Shown one piece after another: positions 3,239 through 11,046 of a stretch of DNA of 19,230 nt. The DNA lies in assembly GCF_014859565.1 (NCBI RefSeq), contig NZ_JACUUA010000058.1:1-19230 (forward strand), written 5' to 3'. The notes beneath the pieces are model-generated. The model did no database searches. It was not told the DNA's origin and saw nothing but the letters and a program-made list of their open reading frames with translations. Numbering within the stretch: position 1 is the first letter of the stretch; every line of letters starts with the position of its first letter. The stretch comes from Marinospirillum sp. (GTDB taxonomy: Bacteria; Pseudomonadota; Gammaproteobacteria; Pseudomonadales; Halomonadaceae). A program made the position numbers and the translations under genes.

Positions 3239-4012
3239 ATGAGCAAGTTTTACGCTGAACAAGTCACCGGGGTTCACCACTGGACAGATCACCTGTTCAG
3301 CTTCACCACCACCCGTGATGCCGGATTACGTTACAAAAATGGTCAGTTTGTGATGATCGGACTGGAAGTGGACGGTCGCCCGTTAATGCGTGCTTACAGC
3401 ATTGCCAGCCCCAACTATGAAGACCAGCTGGAATTTTTCAGCATCAAGGTACAAGACGGCCCGCTGACCTCGCGTCTGCAGCACCTTAAAAAAGGTGATC
3501 AGCTGATGATCAGTAAAAAACCCACCGGCACCCTGGTGCTGGATGATTTAAAACCCGGTAAAAACCTTTATCTATTCAGCACTGGCACGGGTCTGGCTCC
3601 TTTCCTTAGCGTGATTCAGGATCCGGAAACCTACGAGCGGTTTGAAAAAGTGGTTGTGCTGCACGGTGTACGCTGGGAAAAAGATCTGGCTTATCGTGAG
3701 TTCATCACCCAGGAACTACCCAAACACGAATACCTAGGTGAACAAATCAAAAACCAGCTGGTGTATTACCCGGCAGTGACTCGCGAATCTTTTGTCCATC
3801 AAGGTCGCATCACCGATCTGGCAGCCAGTGGCCAACTGGCAAGTGATCTGGGATTACCGGAACTCAACCCTGAAACCGATCGCGCCATGATCTGTGGCAG
3901 CCCGCAGATGTTAAAAGACATCAGCAACATGCTGGATCAACGGGGTTTTAACATTTCTCCACGTCTGGGTGATCCGGGTGACTATGTGATTGAACGCGCT
4001 TTTGTTGATTGA
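3239..4012 (+). CDS. fpr: Ferredoxin-NADP+ reductase (Fpr, bacterial subclass I)
   Basis: Fpr moves electrons between NADPH and ferredoxin or flavodoxin through FAD, in the cytoplasm, and is often part of oxidative-stress and iron-sulfur metabolism. The 257-residue protein has an N-terminal FAD-binding barrel with RAYSIAS at 51-57 and a C-terminal NADP-binding domain with STGTGLAPF at 114-122 and CGSPQM at 219-224. It ends IERAFVD; subclass I enzymes of the Azotobacter/Pseudomonas type end in a closely similar AFVEK tail. The ATG at 3239 is preceded by CGAGGG at 3227-3232. The gene stands alone between two gaps of about 140 bases, so it probably has its own promoter. Its nearness to the sulfur operon may be incidental. 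Confidence 0.93.
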   Translation: MSKFYAEQVTGVHHWTDHLFSFTTTRDAGLRYKNGQFVMIGLEVDGRPLMRAYSIASPNYEDQLEFFSIKVQDGPLTSRLQHLKKGDQLMISKKPTGTLVLDDLKPGKNLYLFSTGTGLAPFLSVIQDPETYERFEKVVVLHGVRWEKDLAYREFITQELPKHEYLGEQIKNQLVYYPAVTRESFVHQGRITDLAASGQLASDLGLPELNPETDRAMICGSPQMLKDISNMLDQRGFNISPRLGDPGDYVIERAFVD

Positions 4013-4150: not shown

Positions 4151-4480
4151 ATGCTCAACAAACAGTCTTTTGTTACTTTTGCCAGCGCTGGGCTGCTCAG
4201 CCTGCTGGCTGTATCCAGTGTTCAGGCCGCCACAACTGAACAACGCCAGATTCAGGTACTGGCAGGCTCGTGCGCCAACTGCCACGGTACCGATGGCCGC
4301 CTGGCCGGTGCCATTCCAGCCATTGCAGGGCGTCCTGCACGGGTATTGGAAGCACAACTCCTGTCCTTTAAACGGGGTGAACAGCCCCATGCCACAGTGA
4401 TGGATCGACTGGCAAAAGGTTATACCGATGCCGAGCTGGCTGCTCTGGCTCAATACTTTGCCACCGTTGATAAAAAATAA
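4151..4480 (+). CDS. fccA: Monohaem cytochrome c, sulfide dehydrogenase cytochrome subunit (FccA/SoxE-like)
   Basis: This is a small exported c-type cytochrome, probably the electron acceptor subunit for the adjacent flavoprotein FccB in sulfide oxidation. Of 109 residues, the first 26 form a Sec signal peptide ending VQA. The haem site is CANCH (Cys41, Cys44, His45), followed by the GTDGRLAGAIPAIAG segment typical of class I c553/c4-type domains. Met84 in the stretch ATVMDRLAKGYTDAELAALAQYF is the likely sixth ligand. There is only one haem motif, unlike the dihaem FccA of Allochromatium. AAGG at 4137-4140 is the ribosome site, 10 bases from the ATG. The fccB start lies 12 bases after the stop, so the pair is co-transcribed. 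The symbol is assigned by context plus family resemblance; SoxE is an alternative name. Confidence 0.85.
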   Translation: MLNKQSFVTFASAGLLSLLAVSSVQAATTEQRQIQVLAGSCANCHGTDGRLAGAIPAIAGRPARVLEAQLLSFKRGEQPHATVMDRLAKGYTDAELAALAQYFATVDKK

Positions 4481-4491
4481 GGATACGCACC

Positions 4492-5811
4492 ATGAATGCT
4501 GATCAAAAAACTGCTCTGGTTTCCCGTCGCAGCCTACTGAAAGGTGCCGGTGCGGTATCCCTGCTGCCCTTACTGAGTGCCTGCGGCGCGACCGGAATTT
4601 CCAGCGGCACAGCCGGACGAGTGATCGTTGTGGGTGGTGGTTTTGGTGGTGCAACAGCAGCCAAATACATCAAGCGTGGCAACCCAGCTATTGATGTCAC
4701 CCTGATTGAACCCAACAAAACCTTCTATACCTGCCCCTTTTCTAATCTGGTGCTAGCCGGTGAGCGGAATATGGATTCCATCGGTCACAACTACCAAGAG
4801 CTGCAAGAGGTTTATGGCGTCAAGGTGATTCATGCCTTGGCAGAAGACGTTGATCCAGTTGCCCATACCCTGCGCCTGTCCACTGGCAGCACCTTAAAAT
4901 ACGACCGTCTGGTGCTTTCACCGGGTATCGATTTCCGCTGGAACAGCATCGAAGGTTACGATCAACAGGCAGCAGAACTGGCGCCTCACGCCTGGAAAGC
5001 CGGCCCACAAACCCTGTTGCTGCGCAAACAGCTGGAGCAGATGGACGATGGTGGTGTGTACATCCTTTCCGCTCCCGCCAATCCTTTCCGCTGCCCGCCC
5101 GGACCTTATGAACGTGCCAGCATGATTGCCCACTACTTCAGCCAGCACAAACCCCGCTCCAAGGTGCTGATTCTGGATTCCAAGGACAACTTCTCCAAAC
5201 AAGGGCTGTTCACTGCAGCCTGGAAAGAAGTTTATGGTGATCGTATTGAGTGGGTTGGCCTGTCCAATGATGGTCGGGTGACCCGTGTCGATGCCGCCAA
5301 ACGTGAAGTCATCACTGAATTTGGTACAGTACACAAAGCATCCGTACTTAACGTAGTGCCGCCACAAAAAGCCGGTGTGATTGCCGAGCGTGCTGGTGTC
5401 ACCAATGAAAGCGGCTGGGTGCCAGTGAATCCGCGCACCTTTGAATCCGAGCGGGTCAAGGATATCTACGTGGTCGGTGATGCCACCGTAGCTGCTCCCA
5501 TGCCCAAATCCGGTTTTGCTGCCAATGCTCAGGGCAAGGTTGCTGCAGCTGCCATTGTTGCCTCACTGGAAGGCACAGATACTGTTGATCCCTACTGGGC
5601 TAACACCTGTTACAGCCTGGTCAACCCGGAGTATGGTATCTCTGTTGCCGGTGTGTATCGTCTGAATGATGAAAACCGCATCATTGAAACACCCGGATCA
5701 GGTGGTCTCAGTGCTGCCAAAGCACCCTCCTCCATCCGTCGTAATGAAGCCGAATACGCGGTTGGCTGGTACAATGCCATCAGTCAGGATACCTGGGGCA
5801 CCAAACTGTAA
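4492..5811 (+). CDS. fccB: Flavocytochrome c sulfide dehydrogenase, FAD subunit (FccB/SoxF)
   Basis: FccB oxidises sulfide in the periplasm with FAD and a redox-active disulfide and hands electrons to the cytochrome. The 439-residue protein has a Tat-type signal (SRRSLLK at 11-17) followed by a hydrophobic stretch and LSAC at 28-31, which also fits a lipobox. The dinucleotide fold begins with VVGGGFGGA at 46-54. Cys81 in FYTCPFSN aligns with the cysteine that binds FAD covalently in Allochromatium FccB. Cys201 in FRCPPGPYERAS and Cys373 in NTCYS correspond to its catalytic disulfide. Other matches are HAWKAG, MPKSGFAANAQGKVAAAA and the C-terminal WYNAISQDTWG. AAGGA at 4479-4483 is the ribosome site. 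The TAA is directly followed by the next gene's ATG. Confidence 0.94.
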   Translation: MNADQKTALVSRRSLLKGAGAVSLLPLLSACGATGISSGTAGRVIVVGGGFGGATAAKYIKRGNPAIDVTLIEPNKTFYTCPFSNLVLAGERNMDSIGHNYQELQEVYGVKVIHALAEDVDPVAHTLRLSTGSTLKYDRLVLSPGIDFRWNSIEGYDQQAAELAPHAWKAGPQTLLLRKQLEQMDDGGVYILSAPANPFRCPPGPYERASMIAHYFSQHKPRSKVLILDSKDNFSKQGLFTAAWKEVYGDRIEWVGLSNDGRVTRVDAAKREVITEFGTVHKASVLNVVPPQKAGVIAERAGVTNESGWVPVNPRTFESERVKDIYVVGDATVAAPMPKSGFAANAQGKVAAAAIVASLEGTDTVDPYWANTCYSLVNPEYGISVAGVYRLNDENRIIETPGSGGLSAAKAPSSIRRNEAEYAVGWYNAISQDTWGTKL

Positions 5812-6831
5812 ATGATTGACCTGTATTACGATCTGCTGGATAACCCACAGCGCCTGGCGCTGTGGGGAACTGCACTGCTGGGATTGCTGCTTGGCGGCCT
5901 GATCCAGTGGAGTCGTTTCTGTTTATTGCGCGGTCTGGTCGAGCAGAAACAGCAGGGCAATAGCCTCAAGTTAAAAGCCTTTCTGCTGGCCATGGCCGTG
6001 GCACTGGCGGGCAGTCAACTGCTGGTCTATCTAGACTGGGTGAATCTTGGACAGTCTCTGTATGCCCAGTCAGCACCCTCCTTGCCGCTACTTTTACTGG
6101 GTGGCCTGATGTTCGGTTACGGCATGTCCCGTGCCAATGCCTGCGGTGCACGCAGCCTGGTATTACTAGCCAGTGGTAACCTGCGCTCTTTGTTAACCCT
6201 GTTTTGCCTGGCACTGGGTGCTGGCATTACCCTATCCGGTGTACTGGCTCCTGTGCGAGTTGAACTGGAAAACCTCACCCGTCTGAACCTTCCTTTTAGT
6301 GTTCTGCCACAAGTCTTCAGCCTGCCCCTGCTTGCACTGTTGCTGTTTGCCGCCTTCTACAAGGGGCAGCTACTGCAATCCCCAAAAAACCTGCTGGGCG
6401 GCCTGTTGATTGGCCTGTTGGTGCCTATCGGCTGGTGGTTAACAGGTGTAGTGGGTGCAGATGACTTTAATCCCATGCGCCTGGCTTCCCTGACGTTTAT
6501 TGCTCCGATTGCTGAAAGCCAGCAATACCTGATGTTATCCACCGGTACTCGTGCCAGTTTTGGCGTGGTACTGGTTGCCGGTGTTTTACTGGGTGCCGCA
6601 TCCCGCGCGGTGCTGAGTGGTGAGTTTCACTGGCAAAGTTTTGAATCCAGTAAACAACTGCAGAGCAGTATTATCGGTGGTTTGCTGATGGGTGTAGGTG
6701 GTGTACTGGCACTGGGTTGCTCGTTTGGGCAAGCGTTGACTGGATTTTCCACACTTGCTCTGGCAAGCTTCCCGGCTTTATTCGGTATTCTGGCCGGTGC
6801 AGGGCTGGGTATCCGACGCCATCAAAGCTGA
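5812..6831 (+). CDS. YeeE/YedE family sulfur-transport membrane protein (TsuA-like)
   Basis: This is an inner-membrane protein of the YeeE/YedE (DUF395) family, whose TsuA member imports thiosulfate. The 339 residues are mostly hydrophobic, with about nine predicted helices. The family's cysteine motifs are present: SRFCLLRG (Cys37), SRANACGARSL (Cys111) and LALGCSFGQALTGFSTLA (Cys303). In TsuA, conserved cysteines contact the passing sulfur compound. The length is near that of single-chain YeeE proteins, so this is not a half-size variant. It begins on the base after the fccB stop, implying translational coupling and a shared role. The transported species (thiosulfate, sulfide, polysulfide or other) cannot be told from sequence. 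Confidence is high for family and moderate for role. Confidence 0.88.
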   Translation: MIDLYYDLLDNPQRLALWGTALLGLLLGGLIQWSRFCLLRGLVEQKQQGNSLKLKAFLLAMAVALAGSQLLVYLDWVNLGQSLYAQSAPSLPLLLLGGLMFGYGMSRANACGARSLVLLASGNLRSLLTLFCLALGAGITLSGVLAPVRVELENLTRLNLPFSVLPQVFSLPLLALLLFAAFYKGQLLQSPKNLLGGLLIGLLVPIGWWLTGVVGADDFNPMRLASLTFIAPIAESQQYLMLSTGTRASFGVVLVAGVLLGAASRAVLSGEFHWQSFESSKQLQSSIIGGLLMGVGGVLALGCSFGQALTGFSTLALASFPALFGILAGAGLGIRRHQS

Positions 6832-6859
6832 ACAACATCACCACAACCCGGACTCAATC

Positions 6860-7654
6860 ATGATCAAGCGCGCTCTCCAACACCTGCTGCCCATTCATCT
6901 CATCTGTGGTCTGGTGTTATTGGCTGTTTCCAGCAATTTGCTGGCAGCCCAATGGCAAAGTTTTGCTCCAGTACAACAAGCTCTGCAAGGCCGTCAACCT
7001 GCCACCCAGGGATTAACTCTGGATTTACCACTGGTATCGGAGGATGGATCTGCAGTGCCGCTATCGGTTGTTTTTACTGCAAAACTGCCAGAAGGTGACT
7101 CATTAAAATCCCTGCGGATTTTTTCCACCGGCAACCCCAACCCTGAGATTATTGATTTTGTTTTTCATGACCCACGGGTTGTGGCCGATTTGTCCACGCG
7201 TGTCCGCCTGAATGAAAGCCAGACGGTGATTGCCCTGGCAACCAGTCATGCTGGACACACCTGGATTACTGAACGGGAAGTGAGAGTCACCGTGAGCGGC
7301 TGCCTGATGCGCAGTGATGAACAAGCGGATGGCGGAATGCAAAACCCGCGTATAGCCCTACCCAGACGCTTACAGGCCAATCAGAATGCCGAAATTCGCA
7401 CCCTGATCAACCACCCGATGGAAACCGGACTGCGCCGTAACAGTGAAGGGATGCTGTTGCCTCAGAACCTGATCAAAAGTCTGCGACTGACACTGGATCA
7501 ACAACCGGCGATGGAAACCCGCTTTTACACCGGCACCTCTGCCAATCCTTATGTACGTCTGAATCTGAAGTTAACACAAAGCAGTAAAGCGGCCTTTATC
7601 TGGCAGGATCAACAGGGTCAGAGTCTGATTGAACAGAGGGATCTGAACCTGTGA
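6860..7654 (+). CDS. Exported SoxY-SoxZ fusion, SoxYZ-like sulfur carrier
   Basis: SoxYZ is the periplasmic carrier that holds sulfur intermediates on a cysteine at the tip of SoxY. Here both parts are in one 264-residue chain. Residues 1-30 are a Sec signal peptide (ending LLAA). The SoxY-like domain spans about 31-150, with IFSTGNPNPEIIDFVF and the final strand EVRVTVSGC. The SoxZ-like domain spans about 165-264, with NPRIALPRRLQANQNAEIRTL, INHPMETGLRRNSEG and SANPYVRLNLKL. The usual C-terminal GGCGG arm of SoxY is replaced by SGCLMRS, with Cys148 now inside the linker between domains. This architecture resembles the SoxYZ-like carriers known beside quinoprotein dehydrogenases. The ATG at 6860 gives a clean signal peptide; the in-frame ATG at 6755 is inside the previous gene. 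There is no strong Shine-Dalgarno. It is the last gene of the operon. Confidence 0.88.
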   Translation: MIKRALQHLLPIHLICGLVLLAVSSNLLAAQWQSFAPVQQALQGRQPATQGLTLDLPLVSEDGSAVPLSVVFTAKLPEGDSLKSLRIFSTGNPNPEIIDFVFHDPRVVADLSTRVRLNESQTVIALATSHAGHTWITEREVRVTVSGCLMRSDEQADGGMQNPRIALPRRLQANQNAEIRTLINHPMETGLRRNSEGMLLPQNLIKSLRLTLDQQPAMETRFYTGTSANPYVRLNLKLTQSSKAAFIWQDQQGQSLIEQRDLNL

Positions 7655-7673: not shown

Positions 7674-8441
7674 TCAGTTGATCGTTTCTGCAGATGCCGC
7701 ACCGCGTTTACTGGTCGCTTCGATATAATCAACCAGATAGTTACGCGCTTCGGTATCCATCGGCTGGAAGCGTGTGGCTATCCGGATTTTGTCAATACGG
7801 GAAGGGTGCAGTGGGTCGGCTTCCAATCGAATCACCTGGCAAGGCATCGTGGCTGTTTTTTCTGTACCAGGCAAAAGCAGCTTGATCTGAACGCTGTCAA
7901 AAACCGTCACCTGCCGCATTCCCTCGTGATCCGCCAGCACCTGAATGCCTGACAGTGAAACATCAATCAGGTCAGCCTCAATCAAATCACCACTGGCAAA
8001 CTTCATAAACACCTTCTGCCCACGTGCAGCGCGAATTCGTTCGGCATTACGCCGCTCCATGCGTCCACGCGCAAGAAACACTTTTTCTACCAGCTTTTTA
8101 GCCGTAAAAGGTTTGACCACAAAAGAAGTAGCGCCCAGCTGAACAGCAGTGACCAATGAATCCCGATCGCCTTTGGAGGTAATCATAATAAATGGCAAGT
8201 GCGCAGTGGCTGGATTATCCCGTACTGCTGCCAGCAGCTCATCACCAGCCATCACCGGCATTTCCCAGTCACAGAAGATCCAGTCGATATCAGGACGTTG
8301 CTTGAGCAGGCGTAATGCCTCCTGTCCGTCAGCAGCTTCAATTACTTCCTTGCAGAACAAGCGATCGCGCAGCACATTAATGATTGCTGTACGCGCTGTT
8401 GCTGAGTCATCTACCACTAGAACCACATCTTTATCGAGCAT
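7674..8441 (-). CDS. Response regulator with receiver and PilZ domains
   Basis: This is a cytoplasmic signalling protein that joins a phosphorylatable receiver to a C-terminal PilZ domain, the fold that binds cyclic di-GMP. I start at the ATG at 8441 (255 residues), which puts VVLVVDDS at the N terminus as receivers normally have. An ATG at 8534 would add 31 residues that lie in a repeat-bearing promoter region. Receiver residues are Asp11-Asp12, phosphoacceptor Asp58 (FCDWEMPVM), Thr88 and Lys110 (VVKPFTAKK). The PilZ part has RNAER at 131-135 and DVSLSG at 160-165, matching RxxxR and DxSxxG, so c-di-GMP binding is plausible. The gene converges on the SoxYZ fusion with 19 bases between stops. 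The cognate kinase is not in the window; chemotaxis or surface-motility control is a guess. Confidence 0.9.
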   Translation of the reverse strand: MLDKDVVLVVDDSATARTAIINVLRDRLFCKEVIEAADGQEALRLLKQRPDIDWIFCDWEMPVMAGDELLAAVRDNPATAHLPFIMITSKGDRDSLVTAVQLGATSFVVKPFTAKKLVEKVFLARGRMERRNAERIRAARGQKVFMKFASGDLIEADLIDVSLSGIQVLADHEGMRQVTVFDSVQIKLLLPGTEKTATMPCQVIRLEADPLHPSRIDKIRIATRFQPMDTEARNYLVDYIEATSKRGAASAETIN

Positions 8442-8638: not shown

Positions 8639-9424
8639 ATGACAACGCCTTTTGCTTTTCGTATTTATGAAACCCACCGCTTTCTTAAAGCGGTACTTTC
8701 CAGCAGACAAGGCATCGGATTTTTATTCAGCCACCTGTTAAATACCCTGCTTCTGGCACTGGTGGTACTGCTGATCATCTCTCTGATGTTATTCGGACTC
8801 TTTGAGGGCATGATTCTGCGTCGGCGCACTCTGGTACTCAGCTTGGGTATGTTAAGCACCCTGTTGATTGTTGTGCCCATGGCCACCATGCCTTTTTTCT
8901 CTTTTAAGGATGTCATCAACCGCTGCGTCATTTTTTTCAGTCGCAAAGGGTTTTTTACCCACCTGAGTGAGCATGTGTTTTATCGTTTAACACTGGGCGG
9001 ACACATCAACCTGCACCTGGCAACAGCTCACCGGGTACTGGCAGAAAAACACCGACTGATGGCACACAAAACGGAATCGACCAACAATGTCAGCCGCCAG
9101 CTGGCATTTTCACTGGGTCGATCCATTAGGGATGCAGTTAAAATTTCCAGGGAGCTGGTGAAAAGCGGGCGTTTAAAGGCCGACCAGAAGATTGTTGGTG
9201 CCACCTACGGTTTTTTATTTGGTGCTGCCAGCAGCAAACTTAAGTTGCAGCGCCATCAACCCAGCCTGATCACCCGCAGCATCAGCGGTATTTTCTACCG
9301 CTTTGGTGCATTACACGCCGTGTTTATGTATTTCATCATCCATGACAAGCTGCCGCCATCCTTTGATCCGGTTTATTTTATGTCAACCGTAGGTGATGTG
9401 GTCGGCAGCAAGGTCATTCATTAA
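8639..9424 (+). CDS. Membrane protein of unknown function
   Basis: I do not recognise this 261-residue protein. GGAG at 8627-8630 precedes the ATG by 8 bases. Two strongly hydrophobic helices are visible at about 32-57 and 63-84, separated by the basic turn LRRRTL. A third weakly hydrophobic stretch lies at 216-235. Between residues 100 and 210 is a basic, mostly hydrophilic domain containing [30 protein letters not shown], rich in His, Arg and Lys and likely cytoplasmic by the positive-inside rule. There is no signal-peptide cleavage site or catalytic motif I can name. It is divergent from the receiver-PilZ gene, and its last 4 bases overlap the 3' end of the chemoreceptor gene on the other strand. 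A link to signalling is inferred from neighbours only. Confidence 0.8.
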
Positions 9425-11046
9425 TCCAGCTTGAACTCATCCACCAGCTTTTCCAGGTGATCGGCCAGCTTCACCAGATCCTCACTGACTCGTGAGGATT
9501 TACTGGCATCCGCGGAGGTCTGCTGAGCGATGGTGCCAATGTGTGATACCTGAGCACTGACCCGCGCGGCAACCTCCTGCTGCTCATCTGCTGCAGTTGA
9601 CATCTGGGCATTCAGGCTGCTGATGTTGGTCACTGCATCAGCAATCTGAGTCAGAGAGTTACCCACTCGCTCCACATCTGCAACACTTCTCTGGGCACCT
9701 TGTCCGGCTGTGTCCATCATCCGCACAGCACCCTTGGCCTCTTCCTGCAGACGATCAATGGTACGGCGCACTTCCTGGGTCGCTTCATGAGTACGGTTTG
9801 CCAGTGAGCGAACCTCATCAGCGACCACGGCAAAACCTCGGCCACTTTCACCGGCACGAGCCGCCTCAATTGCGGCATTTAATGCCAATAAATTGGTTTG
9901 CTCAGCAATACCGGTAATAATTTCCAGCACCTTACTCACATCATCACTGTATTCATCCAGCGCCTTGATCACAGCAGATGCTTTTTCAAGATGCTCGGTC
10001 AGCTGATGGATGCCAGAGATACTCTCCTGCGTCAGGGTACGACTGGAGCTGGCTTCATTATCAGCCTGTGATGATGCCTGATAGGTTCTTTGAGCATGCT
10101 CGCGCACTTCATTGGCACTGACCTGCATCTGTTCCATTGAGCTGGCCATCTGTTCCGATTCAGCTAACTGAGAGTCCACTGCACGCACCGTTTCATCCGC
10201 CACAGTGGCAATGGTGTAGGCAGAGGATTTCAGGGTACGGGTAGTGGATGCCACTTGTCGCAGGCTGGCAGAAAAGCGCTCCAGCATGGTGTTAAACGCA
10301 GCCGACAGAGTGCCAATTTCATCACGGCTTCTGACTGTATGAACCCGGATGCTTAGATCCGACTGTTCCTCAACCTGCTGCATGGCTTTGCGCAGGTAGC
10401 GCAAGGGGCGCAGGATGATTCGGTACAACACCCAGGAGATCAATAGCACACCAGCTATAAACAACAGCAGTTGCACACCACCCAGTTGCAGCAGATTCAG
10501 GTTGATACGACGATCCAAGTCAGCCAGTGAATAACTCAGGCGAATCACACCCAGCAACTGACCCTCACTGCCTACGTGGCAGGCTGTACAGTTGGTGCCA
10601 CGATAATTCGACTGGTTAATCACGGGACGAAGCACTGTCAGTACCCGGCCCTGACTGGTGTTCTGAATCACCTGAATCGCTTCACCCGACAAGGCACGTC
10701 GATCCAATTCGTCTCGTGGCTGGTCAATATCCGCCCCCGGACCAAAAAACTGCCGTACCGGCTCGGCTCGCAGAACCCGCGCTTCAGTAATACCAGGCTG
10801 ACTTAACACCTTTTCACGATGCACTTCACGAAACTGTGCCAGAGTACCGGTCAGCATCATAATATTCAGAGTGTCCAGATAGCTGTCAGTCATATCTCTG
10901 ACGTTCTGCTCCATGGCTTCTTCAACCATGGCTCGCTCACTGCGAATGGTGAAAAGCATTGAAACAACCATCACCACCAGCAACACACTCAAGAGCACCG
11001 CGTTTACTTTGGTCTGGATGGAGGTATCCGCAAACCACTTGTTCAT
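9421..11046 (-). CDS. Methyl-accepting chemotaxis protein with a periplasmic haem c motif
   Basis: This is an inner-membrane chemoreceptor that signals through CheW and CheA. Of 541 residues, helix TM1 is about 15-34, the periplasmic sensor domain 35-186, TM2 about 187-208 and HAMP 209-262. The long cytoplasmic coiled coil has the family's signalling tip, [22 protein letters not shown] at 379-400 continuing to [12 protein letters not shown]. The sensor domain ends with TNCTACHVG, a CxxCH motif (Cys153, Cys156, His157) that should bind haem c covalently once exported. The receptor is therefore likely to sense redox state, oxygen, NO or CO. There is no C-terminal NWETF-like pentapeptide for CheR/CheB tethering. 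GGAGAA lies 7 bases upstream of the ATG. Its stop codon overlaps that of the convergent membrane-protein gene. Confidence 0.93.

Follow-up and report, generated by a model that had tools for sequence, protein, structure and literature searches.

Flavocytochrome c sulfide dehydrogenase (FCSD) oxidizes sulfide in the periplasm to zero-valent sulfur. A survey of fccAB reports no conserved neighboring genes (PMC6382920), and the FCSD product is described as passing to polysulfide with glutathione as the carrier, followed by PmpAB-type transport (PMC12345210). The SoxY cysteine is able to hold sulfane sulfur and polysulfide chains (PMC5336275), and SoxYZ fusions of other kinds adjoin alcohol, formate, or methanol dehydrogenase genes (PMC11237559). 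The transfer of sulfane sulfur from periplasm to cytoplasm in sulfur oxidizers has been called poorly understood, with SoxT1A of Hyphomicrobium denitrificans given as the sole importer shown experimentally (PMC11582611). In the same protein family, YeeE (TsuA) alone moves thiosulfate and does not rescue growth without YeeD (PMC11073785), and yeeE, yedE, and pdo are upregulated in a soxCD deletion mutant given thiosulfate (PMC9959259). Here, we describe a four-gene unit, fccA-fccB-yeeE-soxYZ, found in a 19,230-nucleotide stretch of DNA from Marinospirillum sp. (contig NZ_JACUUA010000058.1, hereafter the window).

Our interpretation, which we hold at a probability of roughly 60%, is that the unit is a stand-alone module for sulfide oxidation and sulfur import, in which FccAB oxidizes sulfide, Cys148 of the fused SoxYZ accepts the sulfur, and a SoxT-like transporter imports it. 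The parts are all of known kinds and it is their stand-alone combination that is new to the literature searched; no description of the four-gene unit was found in the openly licensed literature of PubMed Central.

A conserved fccA-fccB-yeeE-soxYZ unit

The unit spans positions 4151 to 7654, where four co-directional genes lie head to tail with 11, 0, and 28 bases between them, as an earlier note made from the sequence alone had described. Domain searches and alignments bear out the gene identities given in that note, namely a monoheme cytochrome c, an FccB with its three cysteines, a YeeE protein with its cysteines, and a SoxY-SoxZ fusion (Table 1). FccB scores over the curated cut-offs of both flavoprotein families (PF21706, 167.7 bits against 27; PF09242, 98.2 bits against 26) and matches the FCSD structures 5n1t_A (E 4e-151) and 1fcd_A (E 5.5e-133), while the structural relatives of FccA include the FCSD cytochrome subunits 5n1t_B and 1fcd_C. 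Based on the flavoprotein domains, the three cysteines, and the adjacent c-type cytochrome, FccAB is predicted to be an FCSD. We take Cys81 of FccB to be the FAD-linking residue (FAD, flavin adenine dinucleotide) and Cys201 and Cys373 to be the active-site cysteines. The N-terminus of FccB carries a twin-arginine motif (SRRSLLKGAG) followed by a lipobox-like LSAC that includes Cys31; assignment of FccB as a lipoprotein was rejected since this cysteine is kept in just 22 of 70 rows. Export signals were assessed by eye rather than by a predictor.

The SoxYZ fusion scores 83.8 bits against the canonical SoxY model (TIGR04488, with a C-terminal GGCGG arm; cut-off 125), and it was rejected as a quinoprotein dehydrogenase-associated SoxYZ (TIGR04557) at 102.6 bits, under the cut-off of 140. 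Three module relatives (L037, L057, and L067) score 110.8 to 134.5 bits with the latter model and four paralogues in carrier genomes score 190 to 196. The carrier cysteine is internal (SGCLM) and stands 13 to 16 residues, in one case 20, before the start motif of SoxZ in the 47 of 70 rows caught by a regular expression; in the window protein, it falls within residues 141 to 160, a lower-confidence linker. The transporter matches TsuA in family, fold, and the three channel cysteines (C22, C91, and C293 of Spirochaeta TsuA). Its scores with the two NCBIfam models of the TsuA thiosulfate importer, 59.7 bits against 400 and 58.6 against 645, led us to reject that assignment, and the thiosulfate import that the earlier note had taken as given is therefore retained only as part of a rival explanation. 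The fold lists contained no SoxT structure, an absence that carries no weight.

Named genomes were scanned with an alignment of the fusion, which returned at least 568 relatives; the counts that follow refer to the best 80. Of these, 69 have the complete set on a single strand in the order fccA-fccB-yeeE-soxYZ, across five classes or phyla, so that the synteny the earlier note had looked for in relatives is indeed present. The scripted count of gene order was 68 of 69, the exception (L053) being a wrong start call. All gaps are at most 350 bases in 67 of 69, and once the start of L053 is corrected the sole exception is L043 with a 2.8 kb insert. Among the other 11 loci, two are cut by contig ends and otherwise consistent (L021 and L038), two begin at a contig edge and are uninformative (L064 and L080), two from Bauldia (L069 and L070) have fccAB adjoining the SoxYZ fusion with yeeE missing, four have fccAB on the opposite strand (L074, L075, L077, and L078), and one is without fccAB (L076). 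The four opposite-strand loci belong to Boseongicola, Silicimonas, and Devosia and carry a more distant SoxYZ fusion of ∼31% identity.

Across the 69 relatives and the window (70 rows), the heme motif, the three FccB cysteines, three YeeE cysteines (C37, C111, and C303), and Cys148 of SoxYZ are invariant, and FccA of all 69 relatives has one CXXCH; YeeE C132, by contrast, is kept in only 48 of 70. Pairwise identity values are correlated among the four proteins (Spearman 0.32 to 0.78, with none of 500 row shuffles reaching any of these values), which is partly expected because the rows are related. Flanking open reading frames cluster mostly at the level of genus or family, the largest cluster being a TRAP transporter gene at 21 loci, all from Halomonadaceae. 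One exception concerns universal-stress-protein genes, which closely follow the module on the opposite strand in Halomonadaceae and in two Ectothiorhodospiraceae (within 600 bases in 10 of 69). The other, at five Nitrincola loci, is a PAS sigma-54 activator gene that lies just downstream of soxYZ, is convergent with the module, and may encode its regulator. The four-gene association exceeds chance and the genes are a conserved unit. Carriers include the cultivated genera Halomonas/Billgrantia, Marinospirillum, and Nitrincola.

A tree was built from 90 FccB rows, with a small comparison set of 20. All 70 module rows fall in one group, which holds just four other rows, from the two modules interrupted by a contig end and from the Bauldia pair that is without yeeE. 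Rows from Verrucomicrobiota and Kiritimatiellota are nested among Gammaproteobacteria, which suggests that the module has been transferred between phyla. A version with an unfused carrier is present on a plasmid of Paracoccus alcaliphilus (NZ_CP067126.1; L135 3892-8672), where fccA-fccB-yeeE (48, 61, and 43% identity, respectively) is followed by a second flavoprotein and then by separate soxY and soxZ genes; this indicates that the same functional set exists with a different carrier. No SoxB was found on this plasmid record. The extra flavoprotein between yeeE and soxY is FCSD/SQR-like, and transposase genes lie further downstream. In a plasmid search, the SoxYZ fusion matched 64 records, all under 60% identity, and the transporter matched one. 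A phage-borne SoxYZ was considered and rejected, as the phage collection gave no match.

Table 1. Features of the module and its surroundings. Positions refer to the window unless loci are named.
Feature	Position or loci	Strand	Basis
Ferredoxin-NADP reductase-like gene, directly upstream of the module	3239-4012	+	
fccA: monoheme cytochrome c, 109 aa (amino acids), predicted exported, electron acceptor subunit	4151-4480	+	PF00034
FccA heme c motif CANCH	4271-4285	+	sequence; both Cys and His in 70/70
fccB: flavocytochrome c sulfide dehydrogenase flavoprotein, 439 aa	4492-5811	+	PF21706, PF09242
FccB Cys81, FAD-linking cysteine position	4732-4734	+	aligned with 5n1t/1fcd; 70/70
FccB Cys201	5092-5094	+	aligned with 5n1t/1fcd; 70/70
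FccB Cys373	5608-5610	+	aligned with 5n1t/1fcd; 70/70
yeeE/soxT-like membrane transporter, 339 aa	5812-6831	+	PF04143
YeeE Cys37 (St-TsuA C22)	5920-5922	+	alignment; 70/70
YeeE Cys111 (St-TsuA C91)	6142-6144	+	alignment; 70/70
YeeE Cys303 (St-TsuA C293)	6718-6720	+	alignment; 70/70
soxYZ fusion: predicted exported SoxY-SoxZ carrier, 264 aa	6860-7654	+	PF13501 and PF08770
SoxYZ Cys148 (VSGCLM), carrier cysteine, in inter-domain linker	7301-7303	+	70/70
Response regulator, flanking gene	7677-8441		
Methyl-accepting chemotaxis protein	9424-11046	-	HAMP, MCPsignal
PAS sigma-54 activator, Nitrincola	L010, L014, L025, L032, L039	-	

A scan for promoters and terminators returned nothing exceeding shuffled sequences. 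A counterpart of the upstream reductase gene adjoins the module only in L001 and L002 (Marinospirillum) among the 80 loci. The chemotaxis protein contains a heme c-like CTACH motif before its HAMP domain and is possibly a heme-binding redox or gas receptor.

Sulfur oxidation genes and phenotypes of the carriers

No soxAX, soxB, or soxCD was found among the 14 window proteins scanned, in line with the earlier note. The search was extended to 49 carrier genomes, which stand behind 50 of the 80 loci. None of the 49 has a SoxB over the curated cut-off (21 have weak matches, the best in Marinospirillum celere), none has a SoxA over its cut-off (17 weak matches; no positive control was run for this protein), and none has a DsrA over its cut-off (32 weak matches). 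The positive controls came from a sample of 185 genomes from the same class, among them Marinospirillum alkaliphilum, of which 74 yielded SoxB and 59 yielded DsrA. M. alkaliphilum, the nearest relative (FccB 88%), has no SoxB match, and its matches for SoxA and DsrA are weak and stay below the respective cut-offs. The canonical Sox cycle is thus rejected for the carriers tested, and the view in the earlier note that it does not explain the gene set holds for these relatives.

FccB is present in all 49 carriers and exactly once in 47. In the class sample, SoxB accompanies FccB in 48 of the 65 other genomes that have an FccB (Fisher p 5e-18, kinship uncorrected). SoxY domains number one per genome in 35 carriers and two in 14. 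Of the 14 second copies, four were scored and are TIGR04557 members, one (L114) is an unfused soxY-soxZ pair, and one is a duplicate in Bauldia (L070). The L114 pair, from Paracandidimonas soli (∼4540-6720), forms a stand-alone flavoprotein-soxY-soxZ set in which SoxY ends in GGCGM and the flavoprotein has Gly (FWSGPMSN) at the position of the FAD-linking cysteine of FccB.

Candidate downstream enzymes are encoded in M. alkaliphilum (L132 2809-7741), where a twin-arginine-type SQR-III-like flavoprotein (212.8 bits against a cut-off of 525), a small membrane protein, a persulfide-dioxygenase-like protein, a TIGR01244 sulfur transferase, and a SulP permease are found together, a possible second sulfide route. 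The dioxygenase-like protein is of the metallo-beta-lactamase type and resembles the dioxygenase half of Blh at 393 bits, the cut-off of 625 being that of the whole fused protein; Billgrantia (L133) has a similar gene. A protein query for the dioxygenase matched in 49 of 49 carriers, with a fold common to glyoxalase II, and because of this shared fold we claim the enzyme for L132 and L133 only. A DNA pattern built on a persulfide dioxygenase motif was found in 3 of 49 genomes and was discarded as too strict.

Sulfide oxidation itself is documented for carriers. Fourteen Halomonas strains, all with fccAB and eight also with sqr, oxidize sulfide aerobically; among them, the type strains MCCC 1A11036, 1A11058, and 1A11081 have fccAB, stand outside the sqr list, and show weak sulfide oxidation, and 1A11058 and 1A11081 tolerate 12 mM sulfide (PMC8014003). 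We found the module in all three (L035, L015, and L017, respectively). The methods of that study include SoxXZYABCD among their targets, and the paper does not name soxY, soxZ, or YeeE singly (PMC8014003).

Proposed function and rival explanations

In the proposed route, FccB would oxidize HS- and pass electrons through FAD to FccA and on to respiration. The resulting sulfane sulfur would be loaded on Cys148 of SoxYZ rather than released as free polysulfide, and loaded SoxYZ would offer it to the three-cysteine channel of the SoxT-like transporter; both transfer steps, onto SoxYZ and to the transporter, we infer. Once imported, the sulfur would either enter assimilation or be converted to sulfite and thiosulfate by cytoplasmic sulfur transferases and, where oxygen is available, a persulfide dioxygenase. 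The recurrence of the unit argues for one such function, that is, to oxidize sulfide, hold the sulfur on SoxYZ, and import it. The earlier note had also allowed for sulfur being passed outward, for which we found no support. Many of the carriers are presumably heterotrophs and, by name, they are often alkaliphiles; the likely use of the module in these bacteria is sulfide detoxification plus some extra electrons. A more specific version, to which we give a little less than even odds, is that the module is a transferable, self-contained relay in which the fused SoxYZ is a dedicated acceptor of the FCSD persulfide that hands sulfur to its own SoxT-type importer, placing SoxYZ outside thiosulfate oxidation.

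The set could also work without any hand-over. FccAB may detoxify sulfide alone and release the product as free polysulfide, with a TsuA-like YeeE importing thiosulfate or polysulfide for assimilation and SoxYZ acting as a loose scavenger, so that the genes would share regulation and not a pathway. The likeness of the transporter to TsuA and the glutathione and PmpAB-type route described for the FCSD product (PMC12345210) speak for this explanation. We nevertheless regard it as unlikely, given the low scores with the TsuA models, the constant company of a SoxYZ with an invariant cysteine, and the re-assembly of the set with an unfused SoxYZ in Paracoccus. No YeeD/TusA-like domain was found among the 14 window proteins scanned and neither flanking gene is one, which also counts against it, as TsuA without YeeD gave no growth rescue (PMC11073785).

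SoxYZ might instead be the object of the enzyme rather than its acceptor. SoxF in Paracoccus is said to maintain or reactivate the SoxYZ cysteine. An upkeep role of this kind for FccAB, with the carrier serving another oxidation, would fit the homology of fccB to soxF and the grouping of soxF, soxT, and soxYZ in sox clusters elsewhere. Since SoxA and SoxB, the users of SoxYZ, are over cut-off in none of the 49 carriers, there would be little to maintain the carrier for, and we consider this role improbable. We give still less credence to signaling, for which SoxT1B offers a proposed precedent (PMC11582611) and in which the transporter would deliver SoxYZ-borne sulfur to a regulator that senses sulfane sulfur in the cytoplasm. 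The activator gene downstream, on the other strand, at the five Nitrincola loci would suit such a role, but with the clustering applied, none of the remaining loci shows such a regulator next to the module, and the presence of the oxidase itself in the operon fits flux over sensing.

Several points weigh against the oxidation and import function that we prefer. The tree support for the module group is modest (80/92). The lack of sox genes is known from the genomes of relatives and not from the window's own; several of the 49 are metagenome-assembled genomes, completeness is not given, and the searches for absent genes took in SoxA, SoxB, and DsrA but not SoxX, SoxCD, sHdr, or sqr. The comparison with the class sample is uncorrected for kinship, and the 17 of 65 FccB genomes there that are without SoxB mean that a SoxB-less FccB is not peculiar to the module. 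M. celere encodes a full-length SoxB-like protein (L124 6775-8442; 223.5-225 bits against 550). This protein adjoins type II secretion genes and is without a Pfam match. Given the SQR-III-like flavoprotein, the module of M. alkaliphilum may not be its sole sulfide oxidase. The two Bauldia copies are without yeeE, which suggests that the carrier can act without the importer or borrows another, and free polysulfide could bypass SoxYZ. Just one of the three Halomonas type strains (L017) is within the 49-genome set. All six new Halomonas species also oxidize sulfide anoxically on nitrate (PMC8014003), conditions under which a dioxygenase cannot act, and thiosulfate is stated as a product for the Halomonas set with the sqr strains strongest (PMC8014003).

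If the relay operates, heterotrophs without SoxA, SoxB, and rDsr would feed periplasmically oxidized sulfide to cytoplasmic enzymes. SoxYZ would then have a role apart from thiosulfate, and periplasmic FCSD a route by which to supply a cytoplasmic dioxygenase. With only four genes, the module brings together the oxidase, the carrier, and the importer, and it occurs in cultivated genera, thus making the question directly testable.

Comparison with known systems

The module resembles FCSD of known structure (1fcd and 5n1t) in having both subunits, the three FccB cysteines, and a c-type heme motif, and its FccA is short like 5n1t_B (102 residues). It differs in that its fccAB genes share an operon with those for the transporter and the SoxYZ fusion. 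With the Sox system it shares the SoxY and SoxZ domains and the carrier cysteine, but the two domains are fused and the cysteine lies in the linker rather than on a free C-terminal arm. Fusion is also a feature of SoxYZ-S2/S4 and TIGR04557 proteins, and both kinds may share one genome; identity to these is ∼23% in the two cases aligned by tblastn, their neighbors are genes of carbon metabolism (PMC11237559), and the module members tested score under the TIGR04557 cut-off. A known counterpart of the transporter is SoxT1A, also of the YeeE family, with ∼330 to 350 residues and three conserved cysteines, and a partnership with SoxYZ-bound sulfur is proposed for the module transporter as well. The published tree of these transporters covers only organisms with soxXABYZ and would exclude the module carriers (PMC11582611). 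SoxT1A acts after SoxXAB on thiosulfate, whereas the module would use sulfide through FccAB.

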